From contig PUQB01000098.1 in assembly GCA_003024785.1 (NCBI GenBank), forward strand, positions 584,572-648,571: a stretch of DNA of 64,000 nt, given 5' to 3'. Of this stretch, positions 17,715 to 54,452 are shown in pieces; the stretch's first letter is position 1, and each line of letters opens with the position of its first letter. Both the position numbers and the translations under genes were made by a program. Below the pieces are notes generated by a model that saw only the letters and a list, made by a program, of their open reading frames with translations, did no database searches and was not told where the DNA came from. The stretch is from Selaginella tamariscina. Its lineage: Eukaryota > Streptophyta > Lycopodiopsida > Selaginellales > Selaginellaceae.

Positions 17715-20695
17715 ATGGCGGCTCCGATCGTCGACTGGGAGGTGAGCTCGAATTTTATATATTTTTCAATGTAATATGCAAAAGTTAGCATTTTATATAT
17801 TAAATTTTGTTTTTTATTTTGATGTATATGTTTAAAATGTGTTTTTTTAGAATATTTTTCAGTGTAATATGCAAAAGTTAGCATTTTATATATTAATTTT
17901 GTTTTTTTTGCCCTTTATTTATATGTTTAAAAATGTGTTTATTTTCATATATTTTCCACGTAATCTGCAAAAACGCCATCTTTCATGTATAAGCTGCAAT
18001 CCTTTCATATATCTTTCCATTCTCGTCCCAAACAAGATTCTATAATGCAATAATACACAACTTCACTACATATTATATCTGTATCTTATATATATTCTTG
18101 AGTTTGTATATAGTAACATACCATATACATTGTACTTTTATTTATAGGTAATATAATCATAATAGTCAAATATATTCACAATTAACACGGTATAATTATC
18201 AAGTTATCCCATGTATATATACGTATATGCATGGGATGTGTGTGTATGGCCATGTGTTTAACTCGTGTTTTATGTACAGTCTGTAAAGGATGAGTTAGAC
18301 GCGATCGATGATTCATGGAAGCAGCCGAGGTTCGATTCGCTAGCTCATGTTGTGGAGGTTCTTACCTCACCCAATCCCGAAGATGCAACTGCTATTCTCA
18401 GGGATCAACGCGATGGCATTGAAGCGCTTGTAGATGATGTTGTTCGTGGTTATCACAAAGGTTTTAATAAGGCTATCCATAATTACTCCCAGGTTCGTAA
18501 TATGCACACATATTTAAGTATACATATGTACTTATATCTGTTTAGGATTTACTTAAACATTCTACATGTGTGTGTGATTTTTTATCTGCAGATACTGAAG
18601 CTATTCAGTGAGTCTGCCACCAGCCTGAGTGGCCTCAAAGTACAGCTTGCTTGCAAGCAGCTCCTAGGCGCCAGACATAAACAGCTCCAACAACAATGGT
18701 ACCGGTCCGTTGTGCTTCGTAATGCAATTTCACTACTTGACCAAATTGACAACGTTGCAAAGGTGTGTGTGTGTGTGTGCGCGCGTGAAAACACATATAG
18801 ACATATCCAGTTCGTGCATATGTAGCCTTGGTTTAAAAGGTTTTATATTTGTATATCATAGCCGATTGTTTGCAGGTTCCCGCAAAGATAGAACAATTGA
18901 TTGCTGAAAGAAATATTATGCTGCCGTTCAACTCCATATACAATCGATAAGTATGCTCGAGCGTGAAGGAATTCAGGGTGTAAGTCCTCGCTCTTAATGT
19001 ATGTTATGTGCTTTCTTAATATCCTTTTGCAGGTTGGTGCTTTGCAAGATGTGCGTGCGGATTTTTCAAGGCTACGAGGTGTTCTCTTCACTAAGATTGT
19101 CGAGGATTTGCATTCCCATCTTTATGGCAAAGGAGAATACAGGTAGCTGTGTACTTTGTGTATATGTGTGCGTGTGTTGTGCGTGAGTAAATATATATGT
19201 GTACTTCGTATATAATACTATATTATTAATAGAGAGCAAACGTTATATCTTACAGAACATTAAATAGAGATACATATATATTATCATATTGGGTGTTGTC
19301 TTGGTTTTGCAGTACTGTTAAAAGCAGAAATCAACATACAGAAGACGATTTATTAAACATAGAAAACATGCCGCTGCCTAGTTCACATCCCGTTTCACGA
19401 CGTACGCGGACATTCAAGAAGTCTGATAGCACAGTAATTTCCAACGGACATATTTCTGAAGATAATCGACGATCAAGTACTGCAAGTGATAAGAGGTATA
19501 TACACACAAAGGTCCCCGAGCTAAGCACTATCCATATTTATATATGTTTCTATTCTATACACAAGCTAGTTTATTGTAGACTTTTGTATTTATTTCTTAT
19601 TACTAAATAGTACTAAATATGCCTAACTACTACATGGGTGTATGTTGATATTTAGATAGTGAACTAATCATCATTGATAACATTTACAAAATGAACTAAA
19701 ATTTCAAAGCTACTACTAGTAAATTATTAGTTGCTATTGCATGTAATCAAGAAGATGAGGATTCTCAATTTTTGGAACTCATATTAATATGATGTATATT
19801 TGAATTTATTTTTCCAGCTCCGTCGATGGTAAGGACTACGAAACTGATACGTCCGATGGGATTTCTGAAAGCTTAAGAGCTCCTAGACGACCGACCCTAG
19901 CATGGTTACGAGATGCTACACCTAACGAGTTTGTGGTAGTTATATACATAGTTATCTTAGATACTTTAATAAATAGCATGTGCTACATATTATGCAGTTA
20001 CTATAATGATACATAATATGTTAACCAATTTATATTCAATATATGCGTATATTCAATACATAGTAAATTATACGGTATAATCAAGTAAAATATATATCTT
20101 ACTAATAGCGTATGACACGTTCATATACTATAAATTTAGTCATATACACTACAAATTTACAAGTATATATGCACACTGTTCATTGCTGGTTTTTTAATAT
20201 TTACAATGTTAATAGGAAGCTTTAACAAAGAGTGATGCGTCAGCCCATGTAAAGTACCTGCAAACAATGGTGGAATGCCTAAAGCTTCTCGGGAAAACTG
20301 CAGCTGGAGGTGCAATAATAAGGTAATTGGGTTCTATTAGTATAGTATGGTTATAATTAATATAAATTGCGTACGTTTAATCGAATTTACTTTAAGCAAT
20401 GTTATAACAATGTAACTGTTGTTATAAATAGTTTAGTCGTTTAAGGAGAATTAACTTGTTATCTCCGCATAGACTGATCTGACATCCATTTAATCAGTAT
20501 ATTTATGAACATTTAATGAAGCACTGATTAATTTATTAAATACTCCAGTTTATATCTGTATTTCTTTTGCTTAATATTTTCATAGCCAGCGATTAAGGCA
20601 AACGGTGCATGATTTAGTAACGGATGAGATCAAAGCACATGCTGCTGCACTCGAAGCTTCAAAGGTATATATATATGTGTGTGTTGTGTGTGTGT

Positions 20696-20807
<112 letters not shown>

Positions 20808-23261
20808 TTCATATATATATGCAACACACAGATATGTGTACGTGTGTGTGTCTGTATGTTAAACCTTATATGTTATAGGTGTCAAAAGTGGCATTCTCTC
20901 AAGGAATGGGACCATAAATCTGGGATTAAAAAGAGTTGAGGAAAACAAGCACAAGAAACAACAATCGGTTTCTTCTGACATCTCGAGTGTAATGGGGCCA
21001 TCTGGACCAAGCCAAGTTGCAGCAAAGAACCTCGTTGAGCCTGTACTTGCAGCTTTATCTCGTTATAGGTGATTATATACATGTACAAATCCTTATCCAC
21101 ACACACACACACACACACATTGCAGTTATATATACATATGGCATAGAGTCTGGTAGTTTTAAACAATTGTTAGGCCATGTATGTAATGGTTTAGCTAGCT
21201 CTGTATGTAAACTATATTGTATGCTTCTATATATCTATAATATATAACTAGATTATATTGTGGGTATAGAATGATAGTGGTTTAAAAATACATACATACA
21301 TACAGACACAGACACACGCACATTGTCTGTGTCACTATATATATATATATATATATATATAGTCATCTATAATCATTACATAAATTCTGTTACTGTGCGA
21401 TTACGCTTGTACATACGACTATGTGTACATGTAAGCTCTTGTCAAATCTGTACTGTGGATTGTGTATGCGTGAGTTTGTGTGTGTAGCGTATTAATCAAT
21501 CATTAGATACTATGTAACCGTGTATACAGGCATGTTAAGTTATTGCAGATTTTTAAATATAAAGCCATATAGCTGTGATGTAATGTAGTTTATACTCTAA
21601 TATACTAATGTGCAGAAAATCATGTGATTGTGGGCGAGGCTCTAGAAAGTATAATCGCTTCTCAAGGTGCAGAAGGGGATGCTCGTATGACGGGTGGATA
21701 CAACTTGGGCTCTGCTTTATCTGTGATTCAGGTTATACTTCTTTATATAACTCTTGTGTGTGTGTGTGTTGTATGCATGTATACAAATTATGTTGGTATA
21801 TATTATGATAGTTTTTATGCTGTAGAGTGAATGCCAGCAATTTATTTGCGATATTCTTCGAGCTAGTCCAGATGCTGCATCTGCAGATTCTGCTGCTCAA
21901 ACTGCGAGACAGACTAAAGCTACTACTGAAAAAGGCAAGATCTATATTATATATGTTGTACCATATTAATGTATAATTAATAACTTATGTCTCTAATATT
22001 TTATCACAACATGGTACTATATCATATATATTGTCACCATATATAGTTTAGTTGAAACTATTATTTATATATAATTTGTTTTCTAGTAACAGCACTGCTG
22101 CTCCTGGGGAAGGATTATCTTTTGCTTTTCGTTTGACGGATACAGCCATGAACTTACCCGGTGAGTACCATGAGTAAGCATAAATATATAGCTTATTTGT
22201 AATATAGATTAACAGATATATAGGAGCTACGGTTATTCCGATGTGCACACATATTATATAAAGGACAATTTATAACCATTCGATATACATAGATATATAT
22301 TATATATTCATCTATATATATATATATATGGATATCTTCAAACTGTATATCCATATATTTTGTTTTTCACAGGGCCAGCTGGTAATGGAGAGGTTCCACG
22401 TCCAGCCCGTAGACGGGGATCAGGAAATGCACAAGAAGGTTATGGGACTGGTTTGTTTTAATGAAGAGGGATGTATTTAATTTCGTCTCTATATCGGCCT
22501 GTTTTGGAGGTAGACATAATATTTTTAAATATAATCTACAATTATAAACTTCTATCTGTAAATGTCAAACTTTTTCATATAATCATCTGTGTTTATTAAC
22601 TTGTTTACCTACGTATGTTCCTAAATAGCTTAATTTTCAGACGTATGTTCCTAAATAGCTTAATTTTCAGCAAGGAAGGATTGCAAAACTTGATGGAAAC
22701 TTTCATAAAGGATCAGTTTTTACCAAGACTTTACGTGGACTATCGGAGCTGTGTTACAGATGCCTTAGCGAGTAAGTATATGTAGTGTCCATATATGTGT
22801 ATGTCTCAACTACGTGTACTTCACGCGCACACACACACACACACAGAATGTATGTTGATCATAATTTGCAGGCTCTGCGGCATTTCGTCCAAAATCACAT
22901 TCATCCATGACAAAGAAATCCATCTCTTTGCTTGGCCCCTTTGTGGCAGATCACCTAGCTTCGGAAGTAAGCAATGATCTATTTAATCTATATGACGCGT
23001 ATACGATGTGTGTATACACGTATGGGGACTTGCACACAATACGATCTTTTATCTTTTATCTTTTTTCTTTTGCAGGTTATTGCATGGGCACATGCAATGC
23101 CAAAATGCTGCCGAGTTTCTGGAGCTCGTACAAACTATCATGGAAAGAACCCTTGAAAGGTGTCGCGCTGCATACACCAATGTAAGAACATTATAAACAC
23201 ACACGCACACAAAGAGGACCATGGATGTGTATGATATATTACTATGTACAGATAAGATACA

Positions 23262-23276
23262 TATTCTCTCTCTCTC

Positions 23277-23351
<75 letters not shown>

Positions 23352-23352
23352 C
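23262..23352 (+). repeat. (CT)n(TA)n(GA)n palindromic microsatellite in SEC8 copy 1 intron 18
   Basis: CT repeats, a long TA run and GA repeats in order. The same structure is kept in copy 2 at about 57021-57098, with different run lengths. Confidence 0.8.
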
Positions 23353-25345
23353 AACGCTCATTTATATGGTGACATGCTAAATTATTAAATACAGGCTGTT
23401 TTGGGAACACTGAGTTCTAGTGTTATCGGTAGAACCGATGTTGAACAGCTTATGAAGCAGGAGCCTGCAAATGCACTACTTGAGTTTGAGAATGATGGTG
23501 TAGTGAATGGGGAAGACGTGGAACTAGAATTGGAGATGAACAATCTGCTTCTAAGCTTAAGTTAATGCATTTCATAAAACCTTTAAAGTTATTGTCCTTA
23601 CAGGATCAACTTATACATGGAGATCACAAATTCGTTCTTCTGGCAGCGCTTAGCGAGTCTCTAGACGCTCTTTCTGCCTCCATTCGTCAGTAAGTTTCAT
23701 CTGTGTCAATATGTGTAAAACGTATATATACGTTGTCTTTTTATATTGTAGGCTTGAATCACCTCAAAAGAAGAGGGAAAATGTAAGCAATGCACTTCCG
23801 GCTGGATTACACAATCTAATAGCCAAATACAATGATCTTTCTTTAGAGTGCCTTCGAACACTACGGATTGAAATGCAGCTGCAAGCAATGTACCACCTTC
23901 AGGTGCGTGCATGAGAGAGAGCACGCTAGTGTTTAATCTTGTTGGATCTTTATACAGACCATGACAGGGAGGGTTTACGTGAGTGATCAAGATGCTGAAG
24001 AACCTGAGGATTTCATTATCAGTTTTACTACACAGGTACACGCGCGCACACACATATATATTTGTTACCCACACACATACACGTGTGTGTGTCTCCTTAA
24101 TAAGTGGTCTATCCCTGTAGATTACTAGATGGGATGAGGAAATGACGCCTTATATATCCTCCGCTAAAAGAAAGTACGCTTTTGGTGGTATATGCGGTGT
24201 TGCTGCCACTGCTTTTATCAAGGTAATATCTCTCAATAATAATAGTAATACCACTCAAATATAGTCAAGTAATATCTACATATATGAACTATTAACGCAA
24301 AGATTTAGGATATTCATATTTTACATAGTATATGAACTATTAATATATTTAAATACTCATGCAGATATAATTACTGTAATCACATGAATTAAGCTATATA
24401 AACTACTGATACTCACAGTATTAATATGTATATAATGAGATATAACTTAATTGAGATTTAAATATGTAATACCCGTATATTTTATAAACAGGCTCTGAGT
24501 GCTATGAGTTTGGTGAACGTGTTCGGTGTTCGACAAATATGCAGAAATTGTATTGCCCTCCAACAGGTACTCTTGTTATGAATATGTATATAAACATGTT
24601 TATACGTTGTTATAAATAATAAACTAGTTTAAGTGAGTCTTCTACTGATAATATGTAATCAATACTTACATGTGAGTATCAGTAGTTTACCAAGTTTATA
24701 TAGCTTAATTCATGTGTACAGTAATAGTTTAAGCTAATTTACTATTTTCCATACTTAGGCCTTGGCAGCTCTTAGCTCGACTGACGCTGATATGGTTCAA
24801 CAACGCCTGGACCGTGTTCGGACGTATTATGAACTCTTAACGATGCCTTATGAGGTACTAAACTTTATATTATGTATGTCCAACGCCCTATAAGTCTAAA
24901 TGGATCTCTCTCTCGCTCTCTCTCCACACATGCGTATGTATATATTCACATGGCTTTCCTATCAGTATAATGGATTCTCTCTCTCTCTCACACACACACA
25001 CCCACACACACATACACACCCAGACACATGCGTATGTATATTTACACCTGGCTTGACTTGTCAACTTTGCGCAGGCACTTATTGCATTTGTGGCAGAACA
25101 CGAGTCGGAATTCTCCTACACAGAGTACGTCATATGATTTACAGAAGCATATATTTGTGTGTGTGTGTGTGTGTGTGTGTTGTGTGTTTGTGTTATATAT
25201 ACATGCTTAGTTAATAATTAATCTATTAATTAATTGTTTTTTTAACTTTCTTTTTCAGGTTTTCTAATTTGCTTAAGGTGAAGGTGCCGGGAAGAGAGAT
25301 ACCTGTTGATGGATTCCAGAGGATTGGACAGATTTTGGCTCCTTA

Positions 25346-25346
<1 letters not shown>

Positions 25347-25381
<35 letters not shown>

Positions 25382-26666
25382 AGAGACATTGTATATTAAC
25401 TTGTAATATTCTTAATAGCTGGAATACAACACATTTTTTGCTCTATTATGCGTGTGTATGTGTTAACTATAAAATAACGGTTAATAGTCTATTTAAACTA
25501 GTGTAAATATATAACAATTATTTATAATTTAAACTATTAATTTATTTAACTAATTTATGACACCGTTTATTTAACGACTATTTAATATTTTTTAATTTCA
25601 ACTATTTAATTTATGAAATAAATTTATAAATAGTTAAACTATTTAAAACAATTTATAAGTTTACATTTATACACAGAGTAGTTTAATAATAATAATCTAT
25701 TTAAACTGGTTTGAATAAATAATAATTTAAATTATTTAATAGTTTTTAAACTAGTTTATTTAAGATAATAGGTTAAACTATCGGTCCGTATCAGCAAATT
25801 TTGTTACATTAAATCAAATAATAAATTCTAATTTTAATATATAAACAATACTGCAATTTTCTTAAATTACTTATATTCAATGTGTAAAATAATTATATAT
25901 AATTATGTACTCAGTTAAAAATTTCTAAATTACTCTCCAGTGGTTCCCAATATATATCTAATTTATGAAATACACACGCATGTACACTCGTGTGTACACA
26001 AGGATACACGTATACACTTGTATGCGCACAAAGACCACGCACGTATGCGATAACATGCTTATAATATTATATAGCATTTAATGAAAATATTAGCATACTG
26101 TAACAAATAAAATAACATATTTTAGGCGCTTATTGCATTTGTGTAGGTCATATTAAAACACATTTACATAGGCATATATTTATGTGTGTGTGTGTGTGTG
26201 TGTGTGTGTGATGTGTATGTGCATTATATATACATGTGTGTATGTGTTAACTAGTTTAACTAACTAGTTTATACAATAATGTTAATAGTCTATTTAAACT
26301 AGTGTAAAACAATAGTTTATAATTTAAACTATTAGTTTATTTAAATTACTTTATAAAATAATAATTTAAACTGTTTAAACACCATTTATTGTATAACTAT
26401 TTAATATTTTTTATTTAAACAATTTATGAAGTTAAACTATTTAAGTTATGAAATAAATTTATTAGTTAATACACTGTTGTGAAATAGTTTAACCATTTTA
26501 GAAATAATAGCTAATACTTTATTTAAACTAATTTAAATAAATAATAATAGTTTATAGCTTCAATTATTTAATAGTTTTTTAAACTAGTTTATAAGATAAT
26601 AATTTAAACTATTTAAGATTCCTACAGTTATTTAGTAACAACGGTAACAATTTATTTTATGTTATT
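25347..26666. other. AT-rich intergenic region downstream of SEC8 copy 1
   Basis: There is no gene-like ORF. It consists of TTTAAACTAGT-rich AT sequence, a (GT)n run near 26183, and one diverged direct copy of an AT-rich module (about 25770-26010) that recurs near 26850 and 27850. It is homologous to 59207-60061, which lacks part of it and is cut off by element C. Confidence 0.6.
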
Positions 26667-28540
26667 GCTGTTCCATTGTTTCAAATCCTGTTGGATTGTT
26701 TCAAGTTTATACCCTATAGATAGATAGATACACACACATCAAAAAATATATATATGGATACTATATATGTCTCATGGTAAAACAAACTTACAATGGGCTT
26801 CTTTATTATTATATATGTTTAAATTAAATAGATTAAGTTTGTATTCTTTTATTGATGTTAGTCAAATGCATTTAAATCAAATAATAAATTTCACTTTTAA
26901 TATATCCATAGCGTCTACTGGAAATCTTTTAAATTACTTATAGTCAATGTGTAAAATAATATACATAATTATGTAATGAGTAAAATTTCTAAATTACCAT
27001 TACTCCCAATAAATATCTAATTTATGTAAATTAATTAATAACCATCCATAAATAATGTTTGAATTTAATGTCAAACTTTAAATCAATATCTTGTATACGT
27101 CGGGTAAAACAACTAACATGGTGTATATATTAAATACACACACACGTACTCATATGTACACCAAGATACACATATACACTTGTATTGTGCACAAGACGCC
27201 CACACACACATATCATAAAGATATTAAGGATAATAAGAACATAAGGATAAACTTGTTAATATGTTTTATGTTAAACTCATAATATTTAATAAATAATTAT
27301 GTATTTATCTATAGCTTTACATGTATAAATTATTAATGAAAAATTATCATTAAAATAACATATGTTTTAGACATATGCCATTCAAATTCTAAAAATTAAA
27401 TACACTCTTTTTATGGATATATAAACTTATTAAATACAAAGTATATACTAACAATGAAATAAAAAACAAATAGTATTTAAAACATTAATAAATAATATTA
27501 AGTATTTTAGGTTCACATCCAATTATAATCAATTGCATGCGGAATGAAGTAAACTTTTACCTAAAAATACATATTTCAACATTAATATGTCATTTATGTT
27601 AAATACATAATGTATTATTATATGTGTTTTATAGAATGTATAAATGTATATTATAAAATTATTGCACATGGAGTGAAGTGTATAATAGTTGGTATTAGAC
27701 CTTTACATCGAAAATAATACATATTTATATATTTATATTCTTGTTTTTGAGTTAAATATATAGGTGACATATGCATATGTGTTGAGTATGGTAGGATTGT
27801 GTATTCACTTAAAACTTACAAACTTAACAATGAGCATTATATATATGTTTTAATTAAACTTTTGTTGATGTTAATCAAATGAATTTTCTAGATAAGATAA
27901 AATAACATATCCTAATTTTAACATTATCAATAACGGTCTTTTTTTCCAACTTTTAAATCATTATGTAAAATAATTATACATAATTATGCAAGTAAAATTT
28001 AAAATGAGGTGTATATGTGTCACACACACACACACACATATAGAAGTACACCAAATATATTATTACATTTTCACACAAATACATATAAAGAAAATTAATC
28101 ATTTTATATTCTCCATTAGTATGTATACTAGAATATGTATTTATTTATCCGCTTTCACATTTAAGTATTTAAGTTCAAGAATGTTATATAAGTTATAAAT
28201 TTTTAATAAACACTTGAATTGATATGGACATTTAAATTATATAAAACTTAATTTTAATTAAGTTATTCATTTATATTATGTATTTATAATTATTTATAAG
28301 AAATAATTTAATGTAATATGTCAAACAAGATAAATACATCTTTAAACTATTTTACTTATGATATGTGGGGAATAGAATATATAACGCAACAATTAAATAA
28401 TATGTATAAAACTAAGTTGTAATGAAATTTATGAATGTAATATTTCAATTACTTAGATTTCATTTTGCTTCTCCACGTATGTTTGAAAGACCACGTGTGC
28501 GTGTGCGTGTGCGTGCATGTGTGTGTGAAGAGAGCATTTC
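26667..28540 (+). repeat. Left arm of an inverted repeat flanking the nuclease-kinase gene
   Basis: The outer part (26667-27340) and inner part (28180-28540) match, in reverse complement, 31380-32065 and 31070-31440. Clear anchors are AAGTTTATACCCTATAGATA at 26704 against its complement near 32012-32031, and CATTTTGCTTCTCCACGTAT at 28461 against its complement near 31115-31133. About 0.8 kb (27340-28180) in this arm has no partner and contains a further direct copy of the AT-rich module. Confidence 0.65.
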
Positions 28541-29134
28541 AAGCCACAATCAATTGGTTGATTATTATTGCCAACAATGCATTTTAATGACTCACTATGG
28601 CAGGAGTAGTTTATAAAATAACAGTTTATAGTCTATTTAAACTAGTGTAAATATATAACAATAGTTTATAATTTAAACTTTTTAATCTATAAAATAAATT
28701 TATAATTAGTTAAATTAATTAAAATAATTTATAATTTTACTTTTATACACATGGTTCATTTGTAAAATAATAATAGTGAGTTAAAATAAATAATAATAAT
28801 TTATAATTTAAACTGATTAATAATTTTTTAAATTAGTTTTAAGAGTCTTGCAGTTATTTAGTATGGACGGGATAAATTTAATTTGTTTTATTTAATAGTT
28901 TAAATGTTATCGACTTGTAATTACTAAAAATCAGTATTGCCAGTAGATAATAATCTTCTTAAGACAATTTTATTTTGAATTTTAAAATTTGAAAAAATAA
29001 AATTTAAAATAATATTCAAAAAGTTTGGTTTTTTTAAGCTTTAGTTTTGTTTTTTTTTATAAATTAAAATAATTAATGAGTAACAAAAGCTGTAGCAGGG
29101 TTTTAGAGGAGCTTAGGGTTTACAGTAGTCGCAT
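28541..29134. other. AT-rich region upstream of the nuclease-kinase gene
   Basis: Another diverged copy of the TTTAAACTAGT-rich module occupies about 28600-28870. A reverse-orientation telo-box (TTAGGGTTT) is at 29113-29121. Base composition changes sharply to GC-rich at about 29090, marking the 5' edge of the gene. Confidence 0.55.
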
Positions 29135-29314
29135 ATGGCTCGGGCTCAAGGGAGATCACATCTGATATCGATCCAGCCAACATTAAACATTCGCGCTTTC
29201 TCTTTCCTCCTATTCCAAAATTCCCCCGGTCTTCTTCTGGAGATCGTCGCGCTGCTGGCGATTTGCCGGCCGCAACCACCAGGGGAGGGGCGCATTGGCC
29301 GAGGGTGCCGATGA
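29135..29314 (+). CDS. Upstream ORF (59 codons) ending one base before the nuclease-kinase ATG
   Basis: An ATG at 29135 opens 59 codons, ending at a TGA at 29312-29314. The main ATG is at 29316, in another frame. The peptide is hydrophobic in its middle (RAFSFLLFQN, LLLEIVALLAIC) and Arg-rich at the end. It could be a translational control ORF with reinitiation, or the original N-terminus shifted out of frame. Without transcript data I cannot tell whether it lies in the mRNA. Confidence 0.35.
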   Translation: MARAQGRSHLISIQPTLNIRAFSFLLFQNSPGLLLEIVALLAICRPQPPGEGRIGRGCR

Positions 29315-29315
29315 C

Positions 29316-30737
29316 ATGACGGAGGAGGAGGTAGTGGAAATGTTGAGAAGATACACCAACCGTGGTGGATCTGTACAGATTTGCGCTGCAAAAGCCATAA
29401 AGACCAGCGACGCCAAGTTATCAGCAAGACGCGACCATCTTGGCCACGTGCCCTCAGATCTGACATTGTACGCGAATTGGAGCCTGCACCAGGTAGACAG
29501 CCCGGAATACCTATGTTACAGGCCGCCATGGGCTGTTCCGCCTGTGCCACTCACGATTCTATACGAGCCGTTCGCCAATTTCACTCGGAATTTGGAAGGC
29601 GTAATCAGCCAGAGAGATGTTGAGTTTGCTCAGACGTTCTGGGATGGTGTTCAGGATGCAGAGTATGTTACTGACCACAAGGCCAAGGTTTTTGATTTGA
29701 CCGATTTGCTGGGCGCCTACCTTGATCGGTACGTAACTGCCTATGCCAAGATCTTTGGAGCTGATAGAAAGGGTATTGTGGAAGCTGATGGGATTTTGGT
29801 AGGCCAGAAGCGCGTTCCGATCCTCCTTCTTGAATGGAAGGCTGAACCTGGGAAATCTGGGGACCCCTACTTCGAAGCCCTGGATTATGTGAAGAGGGCA
29901 GCTACACGAGGACCTCTGTATCAGACGTATGCACTGGTAATTTGCATTCAAGGGCCCTGGCTAAGTGTATCGGCTGCATCAGTTCAAGTTGTTGACAACA
30001 AAGCCAAAGTATGGGCGCAACCCTTGACAGAAACCCGATGCTTTGGGGACTGGAAAGCGCTGGAGAAGACGGCTAGGATCTGGAGAGCTGTTCTGTCTTT
30101 TGTAAACGATGTGGAGCGCCTGGGCCCATTGCCGAGATCACCACCACCAGCCATACCTTGGTTGCTTAAAAACTTCACTGAGGTGAAACGCCCCTCCGAC
30201 AAGCGGTTGTTTTTCACGTATATCAACGCTCAAGGGATGCAGGAAGCAGCCAAGTTCGTGTTAAGTTACGGTCAGGAAGCCCACCAAGCTTGGAGTGGGT
30301 TTGCACCCGAGCTCAAGAGTGTTCAAGCTGTTGGGACCGATTGGAAGCTGGTGACCATGGAGTATCTGGCTCCTGAGAATGGATGGATGTGTGCTGAGGA
30401 TGTGGTAAAATCTATCCTTGAGGATCAGGATCAGGCAAAGCTTAACAAGTTTCACGCTTGTGTTGCTGCTGCGGCAGAGGCAGGTCACAGCAAAGGGTAT
30501 GTGCATGGTGACTTCAGACTCTGCAACATTATGGCGAGGGTTGTGACGGAAGGTTACGAGGTTAAGGTAGTTGACTTCGACTGGTCCGGGAAGGAAGGGA
30601 CTGTGGTATATCCCACGATGGTCAGCCGGAAGGTGAAATGGCACGACGAAGTCTGCTTTGGTGTGCAAGTCCGGAAGGAGCACGATCTACACTTCATCGA
30701 TTCGAGTTCCAGACTGGTGGAGCAGTTGCAGACGTAA
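29316..30737 (+). CDS. Intronless PD-(D/E)xK nuclease-like plus protein-kinase-like protein (CRN-type architecture)
   Basis: The gene encodes 473 residues from the first ATG; the frame is open a few codons further upstream, but only from a TTG. Residues of about 90-240 look like a restriction-endonuclease fold: Asp158 in EADGILV, then Glu173 and Lys175 in LLLEWKAE, the D-(x14)-ExK pattern. Residues of about 320-470 look like a protein kinase: HGDFRLCN (catalytic Asp399, Asn404) and DFDWSG (metal-binding Asp420, with DFD in place of DFG). This pairing is known from Crinkler/CR-type effector proteins of fungi, oomycetes and other eukaryotes; the assignment is from motif order, not a search. I see no LFLAK-type leader. 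It has no introns, unlike SEC8, and is GC-rich in AT-rich surroundings, which suggests transfer or transposon carriage. The host role is unknown. Confidence 0.75.
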   Translation: MTEEEVVEMLRRYTNRGGSVQICAAKAIKTSDAKLSARRDHLGHVPSDLTLYANWSLHQVDSPEYLCYRPPWAVPPVPLTILYEPFANFTRNLEGVISQRDVEFAQTFWDGVQDAEYVTDHKAKVFDLTDLLGAYLDRYVTAYAKIFGADRKGIVEADGILVGQKRVPILLLEWKAEPGKSGDPYFEALDYVKRAATRGPLYQTYALVICIQGPWLSVSAASVQVVDNKAKVWAQPLTETRCFGDWKALEKTARIWRAVLSFVNDVERLGPLPRSPPPAIPWLLKNFTEVKRPSDKRLFFTYINAQGMQEAAKFVLSYGQEAHQAWSGFAPELKSVQAVGTDWKLVTMEYLAPENGWMCAEDVVKSILEDQDQAKLNKFHACVAAAAEAGHSKGYVHGDFRLCNIMARVVTEGYEVKVVDFDWSGKEGTVVYPTMVSRKVKWHDEVCFGVQVRKEHDLHFIDSSSRLVEQLQT

Positions 30738-31069
30738 ATCAGTTTAGTTTCTTCTTATTTTCTTCATGTTATATTATATATCTTTTGATACCATTAATAT
30801 TTGAGCCAGGCACTTAATGAAATGAGATTTGAGTGTTCTTATTGGAGAAGTTTTCAGTTTGGTGTCCAGATGAATGATGTCACATTCATGTGTGTTCTTG
30901 CAGGCTTGCAGTCACTCGGAAGAGGAAGAGATTATTGGGCTGTGTTTGATGCACTGCTATCAATGTAAGTTATCGCCAAGTAACCCTAGAGAAAACCAGA
31001 ATATTTATATTCTGGGAGTATGAAGCGGAAAACTCTTTTGTTTTGTCTGGAGAATATTCGGAAGGCGCG
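30738..31069 (+). other. 3' flank of the nuclease-kinase gene
   Basis: Probable 3' UTR and flank. No ORF of note. An intron-like AG (CTTGCAG at 30898-30904) with a following short open stretch is seen, but no matching donor is convincing. It is repeated at 37013-37345. Confidence 0.4.
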
Positions 31070-32065
31070 TATGAAATCACCCACACACAGGCACACGTGG
31101 TCTCTTTCAAACACACGTGGAGAAGCAAAATGAAATGTAAGTCATTAAAATATTATATTCATTATGGCTTAGTTTTATATGTAAGTCATTGAAATATTAT
31201 ATTCAGAAGTTTTATTATGACTTAGTTTATATGTACTATTCAATTGTTGTGTTATATACCCTAAGTAAATTGTGTATTTATTTTGTTGGACATATTACGT
31301 TAAATTATTTCTTGTAAATAATTATAAATATATAACATGAATGGATAAACACTGTCCTCCACTGTTTATTATAATGAAAATTAAGGTTTTATATAATTTA
31401 AATATCGATATATATATCGATTCAAGCGTTTATTCAAAATTTATAACATCTTACGCATGTAAAGCTATAGATAAATATATGCATACACGTCACCATGTAT
31501 TAAATATTATGAGTTTAACATAAACATATTAACGAGTTTATCCCTTATGTTCTTATTATTATAACACACACACACTCACTAGTACATGCGTGTGTGTATT
31601 TCATAATATATACACCACCTTTCCATGTTAGTTATTCTTCACGACATATACAAATGTTGGTTAGAGTTTGACATTAGATTCAAATATTATTTATGGAGTG
31701 ATTATTAATTAATTTACATAAATTAGATATTTTAGAATTTAGAATTTTTACTCATTACATAATTATATAATTATTTTGACTATAAGTAATTGAAAAGATT
31801 CTGGGAGGACTTGTATATATAATTTATTATTTGATTTAATGTAACAAGTGCATTTGACTAACGTCGATAAAGGAATTGCGATTTAGTTTAAAACACATAT
31901 AATGACAAAGAAGCTCATTGTTAAGTTTGTTTTACCACGAGACATATGTACTATCCATATATATGTTTTTTTATGTGTGTGGTGTGTGTCTATCTATTTA
32001 TCTATCTATAAGGTATAAACTTGGGAACAAGAATTTAAACAATCGAACAAGGCCATTGGATTCAA
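31070..32065 (-). repeat. Right arm of the inverted repeat flanking the nuclease-kinase gene
   Basis: In reverse complement it aligns with 26667-27340 and 28180-28540. It carries a TCTATCTATC microsatellite near its outer end (about 31989-32010), matched by GATAGATAGATA in the left arm. It was copied with the 6.27-kb unit to about 37346-38330. Confidence 0.65.
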
Positions 32066-33187
32066 AATATTTGAACACACTTGCAGATGAGGGCCTTTGC
32101 GTGTCAAAAATAAATAAAAATAAAATTCACACACATGCATGCGTACTCAGAGTTTTTTTTACTTATTAATTATTTTAATTTATAAATGTTTTGCTTATAA
32201 AATTAAACTTTTCGAATATAATAAAATTATAAAGTTCAAGATAAAAGAAGATACAATATTCAAAGTGACATTATTATCTTCCTCCTTTTTAACTATTTAG
32301 CTATATTATTCATAACTAATTTTTAAGTTGATAACATTTTTAAATTATTAAATAAAACAAAGTTGTATAGTGAATGTTTACAACCCTTAGATCCTAAACC
32401 CTAAACCCAAAACTCAAAATTGTATCTCACACCTAGACCTTAAATATGAAGAACATCAATTTTGAGTTACATGCTCACTTCTTTTCATATATGAATATGA
32501 TTTGTATGCATTCATTCTCTTTAGACTCTTTCATAATTAAGATACATTACACCAGTTTCTATATATAAACTTCACACACTTTAAAATCTTTTTATAAACA
32601 AGACATGGAAAGAAAGAATTGGTATGTAATGATGCATAAACACAACTCGAGCATTTATAACACATGGATGAAGGTAAGAGCTGAGGTCTGCTTTTGTATA
32701 TTCCATACAAAGTGAACTTAATTATGTTCTTTTGTATGCAAGTGGATAGATTCAAAAGGTTTGAATATAAAAGATTTGTTACTATGCAGGAGTACCTGAT
32801 TCTTCACTCCTAAATGATTTAGAATCTACAATTCATGAAGATAAAGCAATTGACACAAACAATGTATGTGGAAGCCATGTATATACTCATGGTGCCTAGC
32901 ATTATGTAAAAAATAATGTAATTAATGTCTTAACATTTAATCAATAATCGAAATCTAGTTCAATAAGTAGAAAAAGAACATGACCACTATGATAAAAACA
33001 TTGCACTTGTCGTGGCAGAGACTTTAAAGTCTATTAATAATGCAAACATCATTTTCATTAAACTTCCTTTAATGCAGCTTGTTCTTCCTTAGTTTGAAGA
33101 ACTTGATTTATGTTTACTTTGTAACACATCTGGAGTTTTGCTTTATGGAGCTAGATTATTAATTCATGGGCCTTCATTGGCTTATAA
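32066..33187. other. AT-rich intergenic sequence, unit 1
   Basis: No convincing gene. A short telomere-like CCTAAACCCTAAACCC lies at about 32392. One 72-codon open frame on the minus strand (32537-32755) has no recognisable domain and is repeated only because the region is duplicated. Confidence 0.5.
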
Positions 33188-33803
33188 CCTCACTTCCTAA
33201 GGCTTTGTGGGCAATACCCTCAATTCATGAGTCACAAGTCTCACTTTGTGGGCATTGAGTCTTTCTTCATGGTCTGAAAGGCTCACTTCGTGGGTGTGGA
33301 AGCTTACTTTGTGTGCATAGGGGATCACTTTATGTCCAAGGGGACTCATTTTGTGGGTTTGAAGGCTCACTTCATATGCATGGTGAATCATTTCATGTGG
33401 GGTCTCACTTCGTGAGCAACGAGTTTAACTTTGTAGTTTAGGAGGCTCACTTCGTGTGCTTGGGGTCTCACTTTGTGGGCATGGAGGCTCACTTCATGGC
33501 GTGGAGGATCACTTTATGTGCACGAGAGATCACTTCGTGTACATGGGGTCTCATTTCTTAAGCTTGGAGGTTCACTTAGTGTGCTTGGGGTCTCACTCCG
33601 TGGGGCATGACCATCAATTTATTTGACATGAACCTCACTGTGTGGGCATGGAATCTCACATCATGGGCTTTTGGTTCACTCCATGGGGCATGAATTTCAC
33701 TTTGTGGGCTCGTTACCTCACTTCATAAGAAAAGAGTCTCACTTTGTAAGGCTTGTTCCTTGACCCTTACTTCGTGGGGCATGGGTCTCGCTTTGTGAAA
33801 CTA
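33188..33803 (+). repeat. 21-bp minisatellite, unit 1 (about 30 degenerate units)
   Basis: Units resemble ACTTCGTGTGCTTGGGGTCTC and recur every 21 bases. The minus strand reads as a seven-residue repeat around HKVS/HEVS over 33197-33391. It is repeated at 39453-40065. A GGATAA-rich stretch (33828-33930) follows. Confidence 0.75.
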
Positions 33804-34154
33804 TGATGTTTTAACTATGCCACACGGATACAAATAAGGATATACATATACGGATAAAGATATGGATAATGATACAGATAAGGATAAGAATATGAATAAG
33901 AATATGGATAAGGATAAGGATAAGGGTAATTAAATTTAGCTAAGACCAAATTGGGCTTCCCTTATACAATAAAACATATATAAATTAAACATTTTGGGAA
34001 TGGGGACAATGTTTAATTTAGAGAGGGTTTTGAATAAGGGAGGGCAGAACACAATAGCATACAGTAATAATATATACAATCGGGATCATGATTTTTATTT
34101 AATTTAGAGAGGGTTTTAATTCACATAGGTTTAATTTAGACAAGTTCTACTGTA

Positions 34155-35690
34155 GTATATAAGGGTAGACATAATTAGGGTAAGCATTCTAGTTTAGGAG
34201 CTAAGCTTCTTGTCTTGTTCTAATCTTTATAATCTAGCTTGTTCTCTATCTTCACGACTTGGTTTTTAATAGTTTTAACGGAATACTTCTTTGTTCCTTG
34301 GTTTCAAGCTTTCAAGTTCTTTAACATGTCTTTTATTAATGCAGAATCATGCAACAGTTTTAGCAGCTATAACTTGAGAATCAACAATTGTGACATGATC
34401 TACATTGACAGTCATCCTCATCACGGGTTTCAAAACCAAAAGTCAACCTACTAGTCAAGTTTGATAACTCAAAGTCACATTTTTAATAACCAAAAGTCAT
34501 GAATCAAGTTCAGCTGGTCTTTTGCTTACACCCACACTGGTACCCTACGGCTACAACACAAGTGGGTCTTCTAGGTACATTCCTCATCGGTGCAGCTTTG
34601 AAGTGGTTTGCACCTTTACTTGAGAAGGACTCACCACTCTTGAAATGGATATATTTTTCCAAGCCTTTAAAGTTACCTTCGGTGATCTTGATCATGAATG
34701 CACGATGGTAACCAAGCTTTGATGACTACGGCAAGGTTCCCGCACAACATCCGAATATACTTCTGATTTCCAATTACTTTCATGCAGCATTAATTGGGAT
34801 GCCATTGCCCTCCGTGATCATTTTAGGGAAAGTCTTCATGACGATGTCAAGGATCCCATGTTCACTCTTGAGGACCCAGATTCTCTAGATAAAGCTATTG
34901 TTCATGCAGTTCGTTACGATACGACTTTTTAAGCGATGTTAAGAGAAACATTCTTGACAAGTATTTTATATTTCAACTCTAATAATGCAAGAGCCATTGG
35001 CCACTTTATCTTCTGATGTTGAACCGATGCAAGTGGATGTTTTCGACCCATAAATTAACAATTTTAATTTAAACCATGGTTTAAATCACCAAATAAACCA
35101 TGGTGGTTTAGATCAACAAACTTTAAATAATTTATGTAATGATTTTAAATTAAATCAAATATATAAATTTAATCTTATATTCTTTAATTTTATAAATACC
35201 TTTTTAATTTATTCATTATATAAATTATTAGTATATCTTATTGGTTCAACAAATAAACTTTTGATCATACTTAAGGTTCACGAGGAATGGTAGTTATATA
35301 TTAGTTTATTATTCATGAATAGTAAAAACCATGGTGTAAGCCAAAAAAGTTAATTCATGCTTCAACCACGAGTACAACTAACACAAGTCAAGTGACAACG
35401 ACGTTTTCAAGCAAACTTGTGTTTATATTGTGGTATGGATGGATACCGAATTGCTAGGTGCCCAAATCGACAACAAAGTCAAGCTAAGGTGGTGGATGGT
35501 CCCTCAGGCAAGTCAGAAAACGAGGAGGTCCAATCCGAATAAGAACATTTCGATTGGACCACTACAAGTCTGCTCCAAATATCTCTTCCTCGACAACAGT
35601 TCTACTTATGATCCCAACAATGAACACCAACAAGCCCTTTCTTCGTTCGATTACTATCTTGACATTTAATAGTATTCAAGTTAACGTAAC
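34155..35690 (+). mobile_element. Degenerate retrotransposon gag remnant (element D), unit 1
   Basis: A TATA-like GTATATAAGGG (34155-34163) precedes a leader and a decayed gag. The capsid segment at 34499-34711 (TTQVGLLGTFLIGAALKWF) shows the same sushi-type core as element A. The gag tail (DDVKDPMFTLEDPDSLDKA) is near 34835. A knuckle at 35418-35461 reads CLYCGMDGYRIARC, with Tyr in place of the zinc-binding His. Frameshifts occur near 34690 and 34930. Confidence 0.6.
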
Positions 35691-35852
35691 TGTCATAGTT
35701 CTAACCTGGTGGGTTGACTACTTGGGTAAAGATTGTGGGATATGTGGGCAAACGACCCAAGCGGACATGGGTCATCATGACCATGGGCCTTCTCATAAAC
35801 ACCAATTGGCCTTTTGCCTAGTTGGCTTAAGGGAGAGGAAAAGGTTCTGACA
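35691..35852 (+). repeat. 162-bp TGTCA...TGACA repeat, copy 3
   Basis: Complete copy with intact TGTCA and TGACA ends, between D and the truncated LTR of element A. Confidence 0.6.
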
Positions 35853-35857
35853 TTTAG

Positions 35858-36042
35858 TGTCACAACCTGATACAGGATACAGAATATAGGATGCAGGATA
35901 CGGGATACAAGATATGCCTACAGGATATGCCTACATGATATTCTTATAAGATATGCCTACAAGATATGCTTACAGGATATACTTACAAGATAAGGATCAC
36001 CATTTTTAGCTCATGACTAGATTAGGTTCATAACCAGATTAG
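35858..36042 (+). repeat. Truncated LTR of element A at the tandem-duplication junction
   Basis: The first 185 bases of the LTR (U3 with the 13-bp units) end at CCAGATTAG, just before the TATA-like region found in complete copies. The next base belongs to the nuclease-kinase gene. The three bases TAG are shared by both sides. Confidence 0.85.
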
Positions 36043-37012
36043 AAAGGGTATTGTGGAAGCTGATGGGATTTTGGTAGGCCAGAAGCGCGTTCCGATCCTC
36101 CTTCTTGAATGGAAGGCTGAACCTGGGAAATCTGGGGACCCCTACTTCGAAGCCCTGGATTATGTGAAGAGGGCAGCTACACGAGGACCTCTGTATCAGA
36201 CGTATGCACTGGTAATTTGCATTCAAGGGCCCTGGCTAAGTGTATCGGCTGCATCAGTTCAAGTTGTTGACAACAAAGCCAAAGTATGGGCGCAACCCTT
36301 GACAGAAACCCGATGCTTTGGGGACTGGAAAGCGCTGGAGAAGACGGCTAGGATCTGGAGAGCTGTTCTGTCTTTTGTAAACGATGTGGAGCGCCTGGGC
36401 CCATTGCCGAGATCACCACCACCAGCCATACCTTGGTTGCTTAAAAACTTCACTGAGGTGAAACGCCCCTCCGACAAGCGGTTGTTTTTCACGTATATCA
36501 ACGCTCAAGGGATGCAGGAAGCAGCCAAGTTCGTGTTAAGTTACGGTCAGGAAGCCCACCAAGCTTGGAGTGGGTTTGCACCCGAGCTCAAGAGTGTTCA
36601 AGCTGTTGGGACCGATTGGAAGCTGGTGACCATGGAGTATCTGGCTCCTGAGAATGGATGGATGTGTGCTGAGGATGTGGTAAAATCTATCCTTGAGGAT
36701 CAGGATCAGGCAAAGCTTAACAAGTTTCACGCTTGTGTTGCTGCTGCGGCAGAGGCAGGTCACAGCAAAGGGTATGTGCATGGTGACTTCAGACTCTGCA
36801 ACATTATGGCGAGGGTTGTGACGGAAGGTTACGAGGTTAAGGTAGTTGACTTCGACTGGTCCGGGAAGGAAGGGACTGTGGTATATCCCACGATGGTCAG
36901 CCGGAAGGTGAAATGGCACGACGAAGTCTGCTTTGGTGTGCAAGTCCGGAAGGAGCACGATCTACACTTCATCGATTCGAGTTCCAGACTGGTGGAGCAG
37001 TTGCAGACGTAA
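36043..37012 (+). pseudogene. 5'-truncated nuclease-kinase copy fused to an LTR fragment
   Basis: This copy lacks the promoter, upstream ORF and first ~150 residues, but keeps the nuclease-like Asp, Glu and Lys and the whole kinase-like part (HGDFRLCN, DFDWSG). It is identical in length and translation to 29778-30737. The frame is open from the junction, but the first in-frame ATG is far downstream (in the AQGMQEA segment), so translation of the nuclease part would need an upstream ATG or a non-AUG start. U3 of the element A LTR lies directly upstream without its TATA region. Confidence 0.8.
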
Positions 37013-39452
37013 ATCAGTTTAGTTTCTTCTTATTTTTTCATGTTATATTATATACTTTTGATACCATTAATATTTGAGCCAGGCACTTAATGAAATGAGA
37101 TTTGAGTGTTCTTATTGGAGAAGTTTTCAGTTTGGTGTCCAGATGAATGATGTCACATTCATGTGTGTTCTTGCAGGCTTGCAGTCACTCGGAAGAGGAA
37201 GAGATTATTGGGCTGTGTTTGATGCACTGCTATCAATGTAAGTTATCGCCAAGTAACCCTAGAGAAAACCAGAATATTTATATTCTGGGAGTATGAAGCG
37301 GAAAACTCTTTTGTTTTGTCTGGAGAATATTCGGAAGGCGCGTATGAAATCACCCACACACAGGCACACGTGGTCTCTTTCAAACACACGTGGAGAAGCA
37401 AAATGAAATGTAAGTCATTAAAATATTATATTCATTATGGCTTAGTTTTATATGTAAGTCATTGAAATATTATATTCAGAAGTTTTATTATGACTTAGTT
37501 TTATATGTACTATTCAATTGTTGTGTTATATACCCTAAGTAAATTGTGTATTTATTTTGTTGGACATATTACGTTAAATTATTTCTTGTAAATAATTATA
37601 AATATATAACATGAATGGATAAACACTGTCCTCCTGTTTATTATAATGAAAATTAAGGTTTTATATAATTTAAATATCGATATATATCGATTCAAGCGTT
37701 TATTCAAAATTTATAACATCTTACGCATGTAAAGCTATAGATAAATATATGCATGCACACGTCACCATGTATTAAATATTATGAGTTTAACATAAAACAT
37801 ATTAACGAGTTTATCCCTTATGTTCTTATTATTATAACACACACACACTCACTAGTACATGCGTGTGTGTATTTCATAATATATACACCACCTTTCCATG
37901 TTAGTTATTCTTCACGACATATACAAATGTTGGTTAGAGTTTGACATTAGATTCAAATATTATTTATGGAGTGATTATTAATTAATTTACATAAATTAGA
38001 TATTTTTAGAATTTAGAATTTTTACTCATTACATAATTATATAATTATTTTGACTATAAGTAATTGAAAAGATTCTGGGAGGACTTGTATATATAATTTA
38101 TTATTTGATTTAATGTAACAAGTACATTTGACTAACGTCGATAAAGGAATTGCGATTTAGTTTAAAACACATATAATGACAAAGAAGCCCATTGTTAAGT
38201 TTGTTTTACCACGAGACATATGTACTATCCATATATATGTTTTTTTATGTGTGTGTGTGTGTCTATCTATTTATCTATCTATAAGGTATAAACTTGGGAA
38301 CAAGAATTTAAACAATCGAACAAGGCCATTGGATTCAAAATATTTGAACACACTTGTAGATGAGGGCCTTTGCGTGTCAAAAATAAATAAAAATAAAATT
38401 CACACACATGCATGCGTACTCAGAGTTTTTTTTTACTTATTAATTATTTTAATTTATAAATGTTTTGCTTATAAAATTAAACTTTTCGAATATAATAAAA
38501 TTATAAAGTTCAAGATAAAAGAAGATACAATATTCGAAGTGACATTATTATCTTCCTCCTTTTTAACTATTTAGCTATACTATTCATAACTAATTTTTAA
38601 GTTGATAACATTTTTAAATTATTAAATAAAACAAGTTGTATAGTGAATGTTTACGGTGCTAAACCCTAAACCCAAAACTCAAAATTGTATCTCACACCTA
38701 GACCTTAAATATGAAGAACATTAATTTTGAGTTACATGCTCACTTCTTTTCATATATGAATATGATTTGTATGCATTCATTCTCTTTAGACTCTTTCATA
38801 ATTAAGATACATTACACCAGTTTCTATATATAAACTTCACACACTTTAAAATCTTTTTATAAACAAGACATGGAAAGAAAGAATTGGTATGTAATGATGC
38901 ATAAACACAACTCGAGCATTTATAACACATGGATGAAGGTAAGAGCTGAGGTCTGCTTTTGTATATTCCATACAAAGTGAACTTAATTATGTTCTTTTGT
39001 ATGCAAGTGGATAGATTCAAAAGGTTTGAATATAAAAGATTTGTTACTATGCAGGAGTACCTGATTCTTCACTCCTAAATGATTTAGAATCTACAATTCA
39101 TGAAGATAAAGCAATTGACACAAACAATGTATGTGGAAGCCATGTATATACTCATGGTGCCTAGCATTATGTAAAAAATAATGTAATTAATGTCTTAACA
39201 TTTAATCAATAATCGAAATCTAGTTCAATAAGTAGAAAAAGAACATGACCACTATGATAAAAACATTGCACTTGTCGTGGCAGAGACTTTAAAGTCTATT
39301 AATAATGCAAACATCATTTTCATTAAACTTCCTTTAATGCAGCTTGTTCTTTCTTAGTTTGAAGAACTTGATTTATGTTTACTTTGTAACACATCTGGAG
39401 TTTTGCTTTATGGAGCTAGATTATTAATTCATGGGCCTTCATTGGCTTATAA
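37013..39452. other. Unit 2 copy of the 3' flank, right inverted arm and AT-rich spacer
   Basis: Copy of 30738-33187, including the inverted-repeat right arm at about 37346-38330. No independent gene. Differences from unit 1 are short indels and a small replacement near 38653. Confidence 0.75.
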
Positions 39453-40065
39453 CCTCACTTCCTAAGGCTTTGTGGGCAATACCCTCAATTCATGAGTCAC
39501 AAGTCTCACTTTGTGGGCATTGAGTCTTTCTTCATGGTCTGAAAGGCTCACTTCGTGGGTGTGGAAGCTTACTTTGTGTGCATAGGGGATCACTTTATGT
39601 CCAAGGGGACTCATTTTGTGGGTTTGAAGGCTCACTTCATATGCATGGTGAATCATTTCATGTGGGGTCTCACTTCGTGAGCAACGAGTTTAACTTTGTA
39701 GTCTAGGAGGCTCACTTCGTGTGCTTAGGGTCTCACTTTGTGGGCATGGAGGCTCACTTCATGGCGTGGAGGATCACTTTATGTGCACGAGAGATCACTT
39801 CGTGTACATGGGGTCTCATTTCTTAAGCTTGGAGGTTCACTTAGTGTGCTTGGGGTCTCACTCCGTGGGGCATGACCATCAATTTATTTGACATGAACCT
39901 CACTGTGTGGGCATGGAATCTCACATCATGGGCTTTTGGTTCACTCCATGGGGCATGACTTTCACTTTGTGGGCTTGTTACCTCACTTCATAAGAAAAGA
40001 GTCTCACTTTGTAAGGCTTGTTCCTTGACCCTTACTTCGTGGGGCATGGGTCTCGCTTTGTGAAA
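39453..40065 (+). repeat. 21-bp minisatellite, unit 2
   Basis: Copy of 33188-33803 with very few differences and the same number of units. Confidence 0.75.
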
Positions 40066-42118: not shown

Positions 42119-42123
42119 TTTAG

Positions 42124-51507: not shown

Positions 51508-54452
51508 ATGGCGGCTCGAGGTGAGCTCGAATTTTATATATTTTTCAATGTAATATGCAAAAGTTAGCATTTTATATATTAATTTTGTTTTTTATTTTGA
51601 TGTATATGTTTAAAAATGTGTTTTTTTAGAATATTTTTCAGTGTAATATGCAAAAGTTAGCATTTTATATATTAATTTTGTTTTTTTGCCCTTTATTTTG
51701 ATGTATATGTGTTTTTTTCATATATTTTCCACGTAATCTGCAAAAACGCCATCTTTCATGTATAAGCTGCAATCCTTTCATATATCTTTCCATACAAGAT
51801 TCTATAATGCAATAATACACAACTTCACTACATATTATATCTGTATCTTATATATATTCTTGAGTTTGTATATAGTAACATACCATATACATTGTACTTT
51901 TATTTTATAGGTAATATAATAGAGTATCTCATAATAGTCAAATATATTCACAATTAACACGGTATAATTATCAAGTTATCCCATGTATATATACGTATGT
52001 ACACGGGATGTGTGTGTATGGCCATGTGTTTAACTCGTGTTTTATGTACAGTCTGTAAAGGATGAGTTAGACGCGATCGATGATTCATGGAAGCAGCCGA
52101 GGTTCGATTCGCTAGCTCATGTTGTGGAGGTTCTTACCTCACCCAATCCCGAAGATGCAACTGCTATTCTCAGGGATCAACGCAATGGCATTGAAGCGCT
52201 TGTAGATGATGTTGTTCGTGGTTATCACAAAGGTTTTAATAAGGCTATCCATAATTACTCCCAGGTTCGTAATATGCGCACATATTTAAGTATACATATG
52301 TACTTATATCTGTTTAGGATTTACTTAAACATTCTACATGTGTGTGTGGTTTTTTATCTGCAGATACTGAAGCTATTCAGTGAGTCTGCCACCAGCCTGA
52401 GTGGCCTCAAAGTACAGCTTGCCGATTGCAAGCAGCTCCTAGGCGCCAGACATAAACAGCTCCAACAACAATGGTACCGGTCCGTTGTGCTTCGTAATGC
52501 AATTTCACTACTTGACCAAATTGACAACGTTGCAAAGGTGTGTGTGTGTGTGTGTGCGCGCGTGAAAACACATATAGACATATCCAGTTCGTGCATATGT
52601 AGCCTTGGTTTAAAAGGTTTTATATTTGTATATCATAGCCGATTGTTTGCAGGTTCCCGCAAAGATAGAACAATTGATTGCTGAAAAGAAATATTATGCT
52701 GCCGTTCAACTCCATATACAATCGATAAGTATGCTCGAGCGTGAAGGAATTCAGGGTGTAAGTCCTCGCTCTTAATGTATGTTATGTGCTTTCTTAATAT
52801 TCTTTTGCAGGTTGGTGCTTTGCAAGATGTGCGTGCGGATTTTTCAAGGCTACGAGGTGTTCTCTTCACTAAGATTGTCGAGGATTTGCATTCCCATCTT
52901 TATGGCAAAGGAGAATACAGGTGAGCTGTGTACTTTGTGTATATGTGTGCGTGTGTTGTGCGTGAGTAAATATATATGTGTACTTCGTATATAATACTAT
53001 ATTATTAATAGAGAGCAAACGTTATATCTTACAGAACATTAAATAGAGATACATATATATTATCATATTGGGTGTTGTCTTGGTTTTGCAGTACTGTTAA
53101 AAGCAGAAATCAACATACAGAAGACGATTTATTAAACATAGAAAACATGCCGCTGCTTAGTTCACATCCCGTTTCACGACGTACGCGGACATTCAAGAAG
53201 TCTGATAGCACAGTAATTTCCAACGGACATATTTCTGAAGATAATCGACGATCAAGTACTGCAAGTGATAAGAGGTATATACACACAAAGGTCCCCGAGC
53301 TAAGCACTATCCATATTTATATATGTTTCTATTCTATACACAAGCTAGTTTATTGTAGACTTTTGTATTTATTTCTTATTACTAAATAGTACTAAATATG
53401 CCTAACTACTACATGGGTGTATGTTGATATTTAGATAGTGAACTAATCATCATTGATAACATTTACAAAATGAACTAAAATTTCAAAGCTACTACTAGTA
53501 AATTATTAGTTGCTATTGCATGTAATCAAAAAGATGAGGATTCTCAATTTTTGGAACTTATATTAATATGATGTATATTTGAATTTATTTTTCCAGCTCC
53601 GTCGATGGTAAGGACTACGAAACTGATACGTCCGATGGGATTTCTGAAAGCTTAAGAGCTCCTAGACGACCGACCCTAGCATGGTTACGAGATGCTACAC
53701 CTAACGAGTTTGTGGTAATTATATACATAGTTATCTTAGATACTTTAATAAATAGCATGTGCTACATATTGTGCAGTTACTATAATGATACATAATATGT
53801 TAACCAATTTATATTCAATATATGCGTATATTCAATACATAGTAAATTATACGGTATAATCAAGTAATTACTAATAGCGTATGACACGTTCATATACTAT
53901 AAATTTAGTCATATACACTACAAATTTACAAGTATATATGCACACTGTTCATTGCTGGTTTTTAATATTTACAATGTTAATAGGAAGCTTTAACAAAGAG
54001 TGATGCGTCAGCCCATGTAAAGTACCTGCAAACAATGGTGGAATGCCTAAAGCTTCTCGGGAAAACTGCAGCTGGAGGTGCAATAATAAGGTAATTGGGT
54101 TCTATTAGTATAGTATGGTTATAATTATATAAATTGCGTACGTTTAATCGAATTTACTTTAAGTAATGTTATAACTGTTGTTATAAATAGTTTATGCGTT
54201 TAAGGAGAATTAACTTGTTATCTCCGCATAGACTGATCTGACATCCATTTAATGAGTATATTTACAAACATTTAATGAAGCACTGATTAATTTATTAAAT
54301 AGTCCAGTTTAAATCTGTAATTTCTTTTGCTTAATATTTTCATAGCCGGCCATTAAGGCAAACGGTGCATGATTTAGTAACGGATGAGATCAAAGCACAT
54401 GCTGCTGCACTCGAAGCTTCAAAGGTATATGTGTGTGTGTGTGTGTGTGTCT

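Follow-up and report, generated by a model that had tools for sequence, protein, structure and literature searches.

Crinkler-RHS (CR) proteins have been reported in land plants and free-living eukaryotes (PMC5289972, reporting Zhang et al. 2016). As that account describes them, REase-kinase forms make up about one sixth of CR C-termini, and in these proteins the kinase is proposed to regulate the REase activity. The headers of CR proteins can be ubiquitin-like, and those of eudicot CR proteins are Myb-like HTH domains, with the proteins suggested to act on invading DNA inside the cell (PMC5289972). A related example is the Phytophthora infestans effector CRN8, a D2 kinase effector described with a signal peptide, LFLAK and DWL regions, an RD-type kinase and a set of paralogues that includes many pseudogenes (PMC3426532); the region to which its kinase is attached was afterwards annotated as REase (PMC5289972).

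In the window, by which we mean the whole 64,000-nucleotide stretch of Selaginella tamariscina DNA analyzed here, a single-exon open reading frame encodes a protein with both elements of this arrangement. The absence of an intron and the presence of a D-(x14)-ExK pattern together with a kinase pattern had been pointed out in a sequence-only reading, and both observations were confirmed. The codons of D158, E173 and K175 lie at 29787, 29832 and 29838, HGDFRLCN occupies residues 397-404 and DFDWSG residues 420-425, and these motifs are conserved beyond chance in 11 family rows. A 516-codon stop-to-stop frame (29187-30734) encloses the gene. On balance, the gene is probably a headerless member of a plant-resident CR-type family in which a PD-(D/E)xK-like nuclease domain precedes an APH-type kinase. 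The coordinates of all features are collected in Table 1.

Table 1. Features of the window around the nuclease-kinase gene. Positions are those of the window.
Feature	Position	Strand	Remarks
Nuclease-kinase ORF	29316..30737	+	473 aa, single exon, stop included
Nuclease-like segment	29613..30116	+	residues 100-267; D158, E173, K175, then G-D-x3-E/Q-x3-Y; putative, based on conservation
Kinase domain	30204..30695	+	about residues 297-460, bounds approximate; K313, HGD 397-399, N404, DFDW 420-423
5' stretch	29160..29315	+	another frame resembles the N-terminal frame of C638 copy L003 (three-frame translation, by eye)
Left AT-rich repeat unit	26669..29090	+	blocks A, B, C and D as cut by the analyst
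Right inverted, shortened repeat copy	31082..32049	-	C 31082-31447, part of B 31448-31589, A 31590-32049
First 6.3-kb duplicated unit	29765..36042	+	99.25% identical to 36040-42308
Second gene copy	36040..37012	+	without the first 149 codons; compared with the first copy, two in-frame stops and a 5-nt deletion
SEC8 N-terminal-domain ORF, copy 1	18265..18825	+	Sec8_N 7.6e-18
SEC8 N-terminal-domain ORF, copy 2	52037..52684	+	Sec8_N 8.4e-20

Set alongside the published description of CR REase-kinase proteins (PMC5289972), the window gene shares the placing of a nuclease-like motif ahead of a kinase within a single chain, with the kinase C-terminal as in the CR order, and it likewise belongs to a multigene family. 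It differs in having no header, whereas its sister subfamily has a header-like exon. The sequence-only reading had called the combination Crinkler-type and unusual beside an intron-rich plant gene; the first part stands, since the nuclease-like motif and the kinase are joined in the CR arrangement, but in a plant the combination is not unusual, given the reports of CR proteins in land plants (PMC5289972). Compared by description, CRN8 (PMC3426532) has in common with the window gene the joining of a kinase to a REase-type region, but the window gene has HGD, is headerless and resides in a plant, and the LFLAK string is absent from its frame (by reading). Eudicot CR proteins resemble it in being encoded by the plant (PMC5289972), but no HTH or Myb match was found in Pfam for the window gene, and the header of the sister subfamily is different. 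Among the titles and abstract openings listed from an open-access library, none concerned CR proteins of lycophytes or mosses.

The gene is one of many in its genome. Two protein queries each returned at least 99 matching pieces, which when clustered within 1.5 kb gave at least 59 and at least 64 places, and the union is at least 85 related places on 53 contigs, fragments and duplicates included. Scoring covered the best 90 of 131 candidates for the first query and the best 93 of 147 for the second, and more places may exist; weak places match part of the protein only, and some represent one locus on two contigs. The latter was seen for C620/C1004 and C691/C971, the C691 copy being cut by the contig end and the C971 copy by an N gap. 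Twelve rows are free of stops with more than 80% query coverage, corresponding to about 10 distinct loci. The nearest copies off C1370, the contig of the window, are on C638 with 87-88% DNA identity and match from 29214 to 30729 or 30753 only. Elsewhere on C1370 and C638, the ORFs matched retroelement domains or nothing. On a further contig, C487, five family places were observed, four of them within 17 kb (16-33 kb, plus one at 403 kb), with stops in the majority of rows; this may be a second array. Protein searches outside the genome identified six proteins in all, one of them, P0004, being an ordinary kinase match (7.9e-4); the outside relatives are one sponge protein and others whose organism is not stated. 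Scans of viral contigs and of genome contigs for distant homologues found no relative.

Conservation was counted over 11 family rows, which are the 13 rows of alignment A1 minus the near-duplicates L014 and P0003. K313, H397, D399, N404 and D420 are identical in all 11 rows and D422 in 10 of them, so DFD is the family form of the kinase metal motif. The DFD and EWK variants that had been singled out earlier are therefore no oddities inside the family, where the x of ExK varies among W, V, H, D, C and R. Taken alone, the window protein matched the Pfam families APH (0.0029), Pkinase (0.0071) and Kdo (0.0085), all below the curated cut-offs, and had no match in PDB. A profile of 12 family rows gave 1478 distinct matches to solved sequences at E<=1, the best being ULK2 (2.5e-7), and the best 60 of these 1478 are all kinases. 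Pfam APH was matched by all 12 rows at E<=1, with a best value of 1.8e-6. On these profile matches, the C-terminal half of the window protein is assigned as a kinase. Its best Pfam matches, the HGD-x4-N loop and the DFD-type metal motif are likenesses to the APH/Kdo/RIO-type small kinases, in which DFD is usual; its fusion behind a nuclease-like segment and the sub-threshold scores of the window protein set it apart from them.

Profile searching thus upheld the kinase half of the earlier proposal but not the nuclease half, for which neither Pfam nor PDB gave a profile match. As two AF2 models were also unusable (pLDDT 35.4 and 36.9), the assignment of the N-terminal half as a probable DNA-cutting domain rests on its motifs. 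D158 is an aspartate in all nine rows with a residue at that position (L009 and L023 are gapped there), E173 is conserved in 8 of 10 rows and K175 in 9 of 10. These three residues are among the best conserved positions of the segment, with Y135, P236 and T238 equally well conserved, and a G-[DE]-x3-[EQ]-x3-Y pattern follows the ExK in the family. The placement of P0002 and P0003 in this segment differs between alignments. The same motif order occurs in the protein P0005 of the sponge Oscarella lobularis, with DG, ECK and GDPRLQGVAYVK, then HGDFRSPN and DFDWSG. The putative site is altered in some open paralogues: L009 has no D and has D in place of E, L017 has V for E, and L015 has T for K. 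Among the close copies, 13 pieces cover E173, and 4 of these have K there.

Such altered paralogues, seen beside the invariant kinase residues, would fit a family that is mainly one of kinases, with the nuclease segment a relic and the working part an APH-type kinase in plant signalling. We consider this rather unlikely, as D158 never varies where a residue is present and E173 and K175 are nearly as constant. Moreover, in the open pair L013-L014, where dN/dS is 0.41 overall, the nuclease half, at 0.25, is under stronger constraint than the kinase half, at 0.57, which argues against a relic insofar as one pair can. A second open pair, L015-L017, has a dN/dS of 0.15 with dS saturated at 2.1.

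A pseudogene status, complete or incipient, of the window copy and its array is likewise doubtful, though the state of the close copies offers some ground for it. In the assembly, each of the 14 pieces of the other C1370 and C638 copies contains one or more frameshifting indels or stops. Against these 14 pieces the window gene shows dN/dS values of just 0.41-0.73 in 13, and against its near-identical second copy the value is 1.54 (3 synonymous and 18 nonsynonymous changes). The window protein may itself be shortened at the N-terminus, because the L003-like N-terminal frame of the 5' stretch (Table 1) is not the frame of the ORF. However, the 14 pieces together show only 8 in-frame stops for about 1272 substitutions, against the 4.3% expected of random change, a statistic that is indicative only, since the copies are related and half of the substitutions may have occurred on the branch of the window gene; two of the eight stops are in the second copy, which has 21 substitutions. 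In addition, one-base deletions greatly outnumber one-base insertions (68 vs 5 in 12 copies), and in two near-identical contig pairs indels exceed substitutions (17 to 12 and 27 to 16). On the strength of this deletion excess and these indel-rich pairs, part of the frame breaks are likely consensus errors of the assembly, and we do not call the array dead. In other pairs indels are fewer than substitutions (15 to 22 for the window units, 8 to 49 and 3 to 104). The deletion excess and the indel-rich pairs, noted among the C1370 and C638 copies, L018/L019 and L043/L044, suggest residual consensus errors in this assembly.

The family falls into two subfamilies. In a tree of 16 kinase segments, the window gene groups with L009, L010 and L011 (94/94), and seven others form a second subfamily (100/99). 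The outside rows, the sponge protein among them, belong to neither group, at weak support (60/40), and long branches lead to L011 and P0001. Further places were assigned to subfamily 2 when L018 matched them better than the window protein did. Members of subfamily 2 have an exon of 62-68 residues upstream in another frame, with a GT after it. A model of this header exon built on six sequences matched 16 of the 17 subfamily-2 places examined, 10 of which had not been used in building it; L028 is the one place without a match. Among the matches, L018/L019 and L043/L044 are near-identical pairs, and those in L012, L016, L043, L046 and L047 are partial or in two pieces. The exon lies 1257-1344 nt before the kinase loop, save for one small piece of L047 at 1455. 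Where the match extends to the end of the model, as it does in 15 places, the GT falls inside the last codon of the exon. In 11 loci, use of the first AG 37-77 nt further on would give introns of 43-60 nt. From this pattern we infer that the header exon is spliced to the main frame across an intron of about 50 nt.

The header model has no match in the six frames of the window (pieces of at least 35 aa, E<=0.05) or in the non-subfamily-2 sequence examined, and the subfamily that contains the window gene is without a header exon. Some members of that subfamily have basic N-terminal stretches, seen by eye as KRFRSSFPPKRSRSSSS in L003 and KKRRSSS in L009. The header exon has no Pfam or PDB match; by eye it appears to resemble the ubiquitin-like header of CR proteins. 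Between L013 and L014 (L013:110-313, L014:2960-3160) its dN/dS is 1.26 on 67 codons with about 30 changes. In this pair, protein-level change is thus faster in the header exon than elsewhere in the gene.

The position of the gene between SEC8 duplicates, also claimed in the sequence-only reading, was borne out: ORFs matching Sec8_N are present on both sides, within duplicated regions (14234-26044 and 48066-59871) of 92-95% identity. At three places of the contig (576-579 kb, 610-613 kb and 644-652 kb) the repeat and the gene come after a SEC8 tail, with retroelement DNA between the tail and the gene at the 644-652 kb place. The gene therefore sits between SEC8 copies through duplication of one SEC8-plus-gene block, and the array arose by local segmental duplication. 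Pieces of Ty3-type retroelements with gag, reverse transcriptase, RNase H and integrase were observed at 6458-9441, 47869-48459 and 60335-63360. A short ORF at 30801-30968 resembles a fragment of a plant PPR protein by eye, without a match in Pfam.

The window gene has a GC content of 0.51 between 600-nt flanks of 0.30 and 0.32. The composition step near 29090 on which the earlier reading had built is real, and it is the edge of the local AT-rich repeat (29090/29091). Recent uptake of the gene from a fungus or oomycete, or its arrival inside a transposon, would account for an intronless frame beside this step, for the inverted repeats that flank it and for block C on both sides of the gene in 7 of the 11 C1370 copies by the analyst's count. 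Both possibilities had been raised in the sequence-only reading, and we regard them as very unlikely. The many related places in the same genome speak against recent acquisition, and the GC of 0.51 and GC3 of 0.55 fit within the range of three native frames (GC 0.43-0.57, GC3 0.43-0.66). Composition as a sign of horizontal transfer was rejected on this small sample of native frames, with the SEC8 exons at GC 0.42-0.43. As for a transposon, the C+D part of the repeat, to which the genome-wide search was confined, occurs at length only on C1370 among the best 40 of 86 candidates scored with very common words skipped; other contigs gave short sub-blocks of it in the same set. None of the 22 other family loci examined has such flanks beyond one 35-base match, and the recurrence of the repeat and gene behind SEC8 DNA at three places indicates that they were duplicated as a block. 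A transposon with long inverted ends was accordingly dropped as a candidate. An ancient transfer before expansion of the family may have taken place, the outside branches of the tree being weak.

The assembly contains 26 chlorophyll a/b-binding matches and at least 150 DYW deaminase matches (150 of 282 candidates scored), the latter including matches on the family contigs C638, C504, C505, C530, C587, C671, C1, C971, C915, C441 and C455. That the family contigs are microbial contamination of the plant assembly is scarcely credible: the relatives found outside this genome are limited to one sponge protein and others whose organism is not stated, and C1370 is absent from the chlorophyll-binding matches and from the DYW matches listed (150 of 282 candidates), but many family contigs have DYW genes, including C638 with the closest copies off C1370, and C505 also carries a chlorophyll a/b-binding gene.

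By analogy with the described proteins, the window gene most likely works like a CR nuclease-kinase. The protein would stay in the plant cell and probably act in the nucleus, nuclear signals having been judged by eye, and the predicted D158-E173-K175 site would cut nucleic acid. The kinase may switch or restrain this activity, as proposed for REase-kinase CR proteins (PMC5289972). The most likely use would be in conflict, either by cutting invading or mobile DNA or through a suicide response in which the nuclear DNA of the host is cut. Paralogues whose nuclease site is altered would probably be regulators, decoys or decaying copies.

This locus also illustrates how a local AT-rich repeat can make a GC step and an intronless frame mimic horizontal transfer. 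A bolder and quite improbable extension of the CR-type reading is that a land plant maintains a large internal arsenal of nuclease-kinases under active reshaping. In it, target or location would be set by the fast-changing header exon, and the active members would be held in check by nuclease-dead paralogues; if this were true, the plant would possess a system built like a toxin with its immunity partners. Crinkler-type proteins are most familiar as weapons of pathogens. The present plant genome, with its at least 85 related places, two architectures and signs of constraint, would let one ask what such proteins do in their own cell, a role that bears on where the pathogen versions of Crinklers came from.
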